From NCBI GenBank assembly GCA_002737445.1, contig NSIR01000001.1:157288-221287 (forward strand): 64,000 nt of DNA, read 5' to 3'. Below are positions 42,645-43,246 of the stretch, in pieces; the first letter of the stretch is position 1, and each line of letters begins with the position of its first letter. The stretch is from Nitrosarchaeum sp. (GTDB lineage: Archaea; Thermoproteota; Nitrososphaeria; Nitrososphaerales; Nitrosopumilaceae). The notes under the pieces are model-generated. The model was not told the DNA's origin. It ran no database searches and saw only the letters and a list, made by a program, of their open reading frames with translations. A program made the position numbers and the translations under genes.

Positions 42645-42749
42645 TTAATATTTTTTTATACATTTTCGTATTATGCTCAAAAGTGATATACAATTAACAA
42701 CCTAACATATTTTCTGGACTAGATGAATTGATCAATATTAATTTTAATA

Positions 42750-42867
42750 AAGAAAAGGCGTAACCCTCAATTGCGGAACACTGAGAGATTTCCTCTCGTG
42801 GTCAGGACGTCAAACGCCTGATTGCCTTTTTTGTTCTGCAGGGTCACGCAGTCTAATCAGCCGAAAT
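42750..42867 (-). ncRNA. Structured RNA candidate (about 118 nt)
   Basis: A GC-richer island in very AT-rich DNA with nested pairings (plus coordinates): GCGTAACCCT 42758-42767 with AGGGTCACGC 42840-42849 (9 of 10); GCGGAACA 42773-42780 with TGTTCTGC 42832-42839 (8, one G-U), stacked directly on the first; hairpin GAGAG 42783-42787 / CTCTC 42793-42797; hairpin TCAGG-A-CGT 42802-42810 / ACG-CCTGA 42814-42821. Minus strand preferred: TTATTATATA near 42885-42896 is a TATA box 25 bp upstream, the hairpin loop reads GAAAT, and CTTTTCTTT (42758-42750) after the closing stem can end transcription. No long ORF. I do not recognise it as RNase P, SRP, 5S, tRNA or C/D RNA. Confidence 0.6.
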
Positions 42868-43246
42868 TGTTATCGACACGTCTCTATATAATAAATAGAT
42901 ATATTTAAATTCTTATACATATATTTTCATTTTTAATCTTAATTTATTATAATTATTACAAGTAATATAATAAAATATATAAAATATTATTGATATTTAT
43001 ATTATTTACATTCATTTAATTCTTTAAATAAATTATTAAAATTTGTTTATATTTAAAATTAAATTATTTAAATTTAATAAATTTAGAGAATTTATGTCAA
43101 AATACTTTTTAAATTATTTTCCACGGTTTACGATAAATTGATAAAAGTGTAGAAAAACTCTGCACTGATTAATTTTTTATTTAAATTTGTTTTTTTGTAA
43201 TTGAACTATTTTTAAATTCTTATGTTTGTATAAATCACAAAAATCC
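42868..43246. other. Extremely AT-rich intergenic stretch
   Basis: From about 42895 to 43100 the sequence is almost only A and T (runs such as AATTATTTAAATTTAATAAATTTAG). No frame of note. It holds the promoter of the structured RNA (near 42890) and, at the right end, of the zinc-ribbon gene. Easily melted DNA such as this occurs at replication origins, but no Cdc6/Orc gene or clear origin box is nearby. Confidence 0.6.

Follow-up and report, generated by a model that had tools for sequence, protein, structure and literature searches.

Bacterial dual-function small RNAs, such as SR1 and SgrS, join a structured part with a short open reading frame (ORF) in one small molecule, and the peptides that such RNAs encode are conserved and functional. 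SR1P, the peptide of SR1, is a conserved functional peptide of this kind (PMC8501984). A reading frame of ca. ten codons is also present in tmRNA, a stable structured RNA, and in leader-peptide attenuators a short ORF lies beside alternative-looking stems and a T run. Small RNAs of Haloferax volcanii are occupied by ribosomes, mostly without evidence of coding (PMC12482152). The nearest described geometry is that of the short-ORF-dependent ribosome shunt of plant pararetroviruses and RTSV, in which a 5′-proximal ORF, of 6–7 codons in RTBV and RTSV, ends 7–8 nt before the base of a stable stem (PMC5902531).

The window analysed here, a stretch of 64,000 nt of a Nitrosarchaeum sp. contig, carries a gene (Table 1) for what is, as judged from comparison of the copies, a real and previously unlisted small RNA of Nitrosopumilaceae. 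It comprises a probably leaderless mini-ORF followed by a folded domain, and it occurs in two classes, type 1, to which the window copy belongs, and type 2. No known kind of RNA sharing this architecture and no prior report of it were found in the open-access literature, although an earlier report elsewhere is possible. With respect to the shunt (PMC5902531), the ORF is here 8–9 codons long and the gap before the stem is 3–4 nt. Moreover, shunting takes place in the leaders of viral mRNAs and brings ribosomes to an ORF further downstream, whereas the present unit is a separate, probably leaderless gene of an archaeal chromosome, and past its stem neither a landing site nor an ORF was found, the stem being followed by a T run in most copies and the downstream genes being mostly convergent. 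In the description of the ribosome-associated RNAs of H. volcanii no sequence, structure, or mini-ORF architecture in common with the present RNA was noticed (PMC12482152). Unlike tmRNA, the RNA has no tRNA-like domain, its ORF opens with a start codon at the 5′ end, and it gives no match in ARAGORN or Rfam. It also differs from dual-function small RNAs in that the ORF lies at the extreme 5′ end, has a fixed length, and encodes an unconstrained peptide, in which a depletion of nonsynonymous changes was not found. A co-oriented downstream gene of the sort regulated by an attenuator or a riboswitch was likewise not found at the common loci of either type, where convergent genes follow.

Table 1. 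Features of the RNA gene and its promoter, given as positions in the window
Feature	Sequence	Positions	Strand	Remarks
RNA gene		42750..42879	(-)	ca. 130 nt; covariance model matches with the full model in the window and relatives; both ends predicted
TATA box	TTAAATA	42902..42908	(-)	starts 29 nt ahead of the start codon; conserved in copies
Mini-ORF	GTG TCG ATA ACA ATT TCG GCT GAT TAG	42853..42879	(-)	8 sense codons and a stop
P0 hairpin inside the mini-ORF		42860..42877	(-)	fold of the window transcript
Spacer, stop codon to P1		42850..42852	(-)	3 nt
P1, 5′ strand	GCGTGACCC	42841..42849	(-)	covariation; P1 also in type 2
P2, 5′ strand	GCAGAACA	42832..42839	(-)	compensatory changes in 6 of 7 modelled pairs
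P3 hairpin		42802..42821	(-)	compensatory changes in 8 of 8 pairs
P4 hairpin	GAGAGGAAATCTCTC	42783..42797	(-)	most conserved type 1 element
P2, 3′ strand	TGTTCCGC	42773..42780	(-)	A-C mismatch in the window copy; GTTCTGC in relatives
P1, 3′ strand	GGGTTACGC	42758..42766	(-)	covariation
3′ end	C + TTTTCTT	42750..42757	(-)	likely terminator; T run in most copies

An earlier, sequence-only reading of this DNA had placed a multi-helix structured RNA of unknown family at 42750–42867, as a minus-strand transcription unit with a TATA box and a T-rich end, in a GC-rich island within very AT-rich DNA. The island is real, with 50% G+C in this segment versus ca. 7% in the ca. 200 bp directly upstream of the RNA promoter (window 42900–43100). 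So are the nested helices, the minus strand of the segment folding at −38.2 kcal/mol (z −2.6, with 3 of 200 shuffles equally good), and the T-rich end, with TTTT at 42753–42756; in 171 of 189 copies four or more consecutive T occur close to the 3′ end of P1 or behind it. The 5′ boundary has to be moved. We infer that the RNA begins at the start codon (ca. 42879) and ends in the T-rich stretch, so the first 12 nt, which carry the start of the mini-ORF, had been missed. A TATA box does lie upstream, but the conserved one is that given in Table 1 and not the string 25 bp before 42867.

The plus strand of 42750–42867 has an even stronger fold z-score (−4.6); thus, folding alone gives no strand, which is revealed by the promoter, the ORF, and the counts of G-U and A-C combinations. 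In type 1, G-U exceeds A-C by 87:16 on the minus reading, which indicates that the minus strand is the transcribed one. A plus-strand RNA was rejected because of this ratio, a further one of 147:5, and the minus-strand position of the promoter and the ORF. None of the Rfam 15 covariance models matched the window at the gathering score, and nothing relevant was found at E values up to 10; weak psRNA6 matches, far under the cut-off, fall on the AT-rich flanks. In five divergent or type 2 loci the models also gave no family at the gathering score except for a neighbouring tRNA, and ARAGORN detected no tRNA or tmRNA in the window. The Infernal/Rfam check proposed with the sequence-only reading therefore leaves the RNA outside the listed families. 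Covariation far above the shuffled and slid controls, family-wide conservation, the lack of an Rfam match, the TATA box, and the T run support its interpretation as a minus-strand structured RNA of an unlisted family with its own transcription unit, and the first two of these led to the rejection of a chance fold.

In the type 1 domain P2 stacks on P1, leaving a bulge on the 3′ side, and leads into a three-way junction with P3 and P4. P1 and P2 are the stacked closing stems and P3 and P4 the hairpins that the sequence-only reading had described. Standard pairs occupy 96.2% of the cells in 76 distinct type 1 sequences, compared with 37–50% in slid controls, and 145 cells are changed on both sides versus 23 in shuffles; the covariation check suggested for relatives thus yielded compensatory changes. 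The sequence of P3 is free to vary with its pairing kept, and P4 is almost fixed. Two additional motifs were considered and abandoned. The likeness of ACGAGAGGAA to a sarcin-ricin loop, noticed by eye, was dropped since divergent members break it yet keep the GAGAG-CUCUC pairing, and a pseudoknot of AAAAAGGC with the 3′ GCCUUUU is credible for Nitrosopumilus, Nitrosarchaeum, and genera close to them but not beyond, since other genera do not keep the A stretch.

A divergent paralog, type 2, was revealed by a covariance model built from 78 copies (R2). Neither this second class nor the mini-ORF at the 5′ end figured in the sequence-only reading. Type 2 has the mini-ORF and P1 in common with type 1 and differs in the interior: its P1 has 11 bp, P2 is missing, and P3 is accompanied by a long P4. 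Here, too, the helices covary (98.5% of cells paired; 147 cells with double changes versus 46 in shuffles), and the mini-ORF has nine codons in all 58 of 58 copies. Type 2 was found in 108 of 250 genomes of the family. Its position in the loci studied from Nitrosopumilus and Nitrosarchaeum is between the genes encoding EPSP synthase and chorismate synthase, on the strand opposite to them; another genus carries it at a different site. The type 2 copy of the source genome (G000:C6:67849-67972; L178 1950-2073, minus) is AT-rich and is likewise situated within the shikimate gene cluster, oriented opposite to its genes.

A DNA search with 42740–42880 gave matches in 125 of 250 genomes of the family. 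When the order was searched with a covariance model built from 26 copies (R1), the RNA was found in 201 of the 400 genomes scanned, and the matches listed all belong to Nitrosopumilaceae. With laxer filters the RNA was detected in 37 of 39 chosen family genomes and in 15 of 17 genera; together with its relatives it is present in more than 200 Nitrosopumilaceae genomes. Complete genomes of the family carry 1–4 copies according to R2, which gave no match in 40 genomes from outside the family but within the order, an absence that holds at the sensitivity of this model. A sequence-pattern scan retrieved 47 named contigs, almost all from Nitrosopumilus, Nitrosarchaeum, and their relatives. The architecture itself, written as TTWWATA-N20-23-ATG-N24-TRR-N2-5-GCSYG, was found in 27 of 35 family genomes, and the matches listed were all this RNA except for one at a tRNA gene. 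The reversed pattern matched nowhere in the 35 genomes, and the pattern itself matched nowhere in 50 genomes without detected RNA, for which the family genomes served as the positive control. A mobile element or virus was rejected as the source, no match being found in viral contigs. The RNA is likely to matter to Nitrosopumilaceae, since nearly all sampled members carry it, in 1–4 copies per complete genome, under a conserved promoter of its own.

The most constant part of the architecture concerns the mini-ORF. All type 1 copies in the initial alignment have ATG, GTG, or TTG at the start position and an in-frame stop just ahead of P1. Among 164 distinct copies of both classes, which are related by descent, so that copy counts overstate the independent evidence and do not amount to 164 independent tests, only one departs from the conserved start, stop, and length. 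The exception (L180 1936-2062) is an AT-decayed type 1 copy in the usual SDR locus, with the mini-ORF broken and the stems decayed, and may be regarded as a natural pseudogene control. The starts comprise 157 ATG, 5 GTG, and 2 TTG and the stops 87 TAA, 49 TGA, and 28 TAG; TGG was never seen at the stop position, versus 8.4 cases expected from independent columns. The length is nine codons in 150 copies, eight in 11, and ten in two, and the stop lies 3–4 nt from P1, a stem of 9–11 bp, in 150 of 164 copies. In 75 pairs of near neighbours the mini-ORF differs in length once, by 3 nt, whereas the part behind the stop has 59 indels, of which 46 involve a single nucleotide. The stop pattern is not shared by the other two frames of the same stretch. 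TTAAATA, with at least six of seven matches, lies at −31 to −27 in all 163 copies whose upstream sequence is long enough, and 148 of these have it without a mismatch. In 751 ordinary genes of the same loci the TATA position peaks at −28, −29, and −27; the spacing in the RNA equals this peak and so fits the expectation for leaderless transcripts. We infer from it a TATA box set for a leaderless start, with the transcript probably beginning at the start codon.

The conservation of the frame does not extend to the peptide. Synonymous and nonsynonymous single changes number 7 and 48 in type 1, a count that takes in 16 type 2 copies, versus ca. 23 and 60 on random placement of the same base changes, and 4 and 36 in type 2, versus ca. 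9 and 35; hence, no depletion of amino acid changes was found in either class. The middle codon positions are the most variable and conservation is higher in the folded part than in the peptide, although within clades some likeness recurs (MRKDAN- and MPKDIIPID). With start, stop, and length fixed, conservation is thus a matter of the frame and not of the peptide. The frame is also no by-product of the type 1 hairpin, because type 2 keeps it despite a weak hairpin potential (mean z of the first 30 nt −0.9, compared with −2.8 in type 1 copies).

The surroundings of the RNA vary. The window copy lies, as the sequence-only reading had it, between a DtxR-type repressor gene and a DUF192 gene, with a 114-aa ORF on the repressor side; this arrangement is lineage-specific and partly common to other Nitrosarchaeum, and does not hold in general, other copies adjoining different genes. 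The usual type 1 site is flanked on one side by an SDR gene and on the other by a gene whose small product is predicted to be a membrane or secreted protein, with a CdvB/Snf7-like gene beyond. In one instance (L062 3369-4013; Pfam Snf7, E 1e-4, under the cut-off) this gene is two genes away from the common type 1 locus, as in many genera. Other type 1 sites adjoin purP-like (by eye), TFB-like, radical-SAM, and CorA-like genes; the neighbours tested against Pfam were SDR, Snf7, chorismate synthase, EPSP synthase, DtxR-type, and DUF192. The gene that follows the RNA is convergent at the common loci of both types, and no gene there is placed for control in cis; at one common type 1 locus the 3′ end of the RNA overlaps the end of the convergent gene by a few bases. 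The varied neighbours and the convergent next gene argue for a unit acting in trans, and the RNA is probably free-standing and trans-acting.

Since start, stop, and length are conserved while the peptide is not, the placement of the ribosome appears to be the selected trait. We consider it fairly probable (ca. 0.6) that this is a free-standing RNA whose 5′ end loads a ribosome that terminates at the foot of the fold, the ribosome positioning and not the peptide being under selection. A 70S ribosome would initiate directly at the 5′ end, translate 8–9 codons, and terminate at the foot of P1. From the geometry of the ribosome, P1 would occupy the mRNA entrance once the stop codon had reached the A site. 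The ribosome would then hold up or melt the bottom of P1, with the remaining fold left exposed, and the trans-acting RNA would be loaded on ribosomes or read by them. A ribosome so placed could make the RNA a reporter of the translation state or a ribosome-bound regulator, or could protect and mature its own RNA. A limit of this mechanism is that the type 1 mini-ORF sits in a hairpin, which may hinder leaderless initiation. The pattern suggests that the cell uses the ribosome rather than the peptide for the action of the RNA. Held more tentatively, at somewhat below even odds, is the proposal that a sequence-free, fixed-length, leaderless mini-ORF parks or times a single ribosome at the base of the fold, translation switching or carrying the RNA, e.g., as a sensor of ribosome occupancy or as an RNA-based factor for ribosome hibernation or marking. 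If true, this would be an RNA that is neither an mRNA nor an ordinary small RNA, present family-wide in archaea that are among the most abundant in the ocean. Its architecture would part translation from coding, the reading frame being kept and the peptide left free, and the mechanism predicts that a ribosome terminates at the base of the fold.

The conserved start and stop codons, the TATA spacing, and the peptide motifs recurring within clades (MRKDAN and MPKDIIPID) would equally suit a mini-mRNA for a functional peptide of 8–9 residues, with the folded part as a stabilising 3′ UTR. We find this unlikely, as amino acid changes are not depleted (7/48 in type 1 and 4/36 in type 2), most variation falls at the middle codon positions, and the peptide is less conserved than the fold. 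An unconstrained peptide speaks rather for a purely noncoding trans-acting RNA, the frame being a by-product of the 5′ hairpin, which is clear in the type 1 mini-ORF stretch, and of the AT-rich promoter start. A by-product would, nevertheless, hardly survive in type 2, where the frame is kept with little hairpin, nor explain a start position occupied by start codons only, an end occupied by stops only, and a length fixed where 1-nt indels are common behind the stop; this explanation is unlikely, too.

The mechanism based on ribosome placement has also to be set against explanations in which the RNA acts on its neighbours or is an old acquaintance. A leader peptide, a stem, and a T run resemble an attenuator, type 2 is antisense within the aroA-aroC cluster, and the overlap with a convergent gene end at one common type 1 locus could point to an antisense RNA. 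That the RNA controls the convergent gene or the aro operon, in cis or as an antisense RNA, is, however, improbable, for the common loci lack a same-strand gene downstream, the same RNA has different neighbours across loci and genera, and the overlap with an mRNA amounts to a few bases. That the RNA has diverged from a known one (5S, SRP, RNase P, tmRNA, an H/ACA or C/D guide, or a known riboswitch) is very improbable: the resemblance to 5S rRNA, in size and in a closing stem that bears two arms, is confined to the outline, and the Rfam and ARAGORN searches of the window, as well as the Rfam models on the five divergent or type 2 loci, the neighbouring tRNA aside, argue against it.

The source genome has a size of 1.19 Mb. 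Its 16S rRNA (G000 C1 228458-229610) reaches a contig end, with a gap at model positions 828–906, and no match to 23S rRNA was found in the assembly. A Nitrosopumilus-type copy of the RNA is located on a contig labelled as a Hyphomicrobiales bacterium (L104 5926-6062), which is probably mis-binned, and two contigs labelled as Nitrososphaeraceae (L064 and L095) carry a copy as well. On another contig (L119 1192-1315 and 1501-1623) two type 1 copies form a tandem pair ca. 190 nt apart, each with a mini-ORF and a TATA box.
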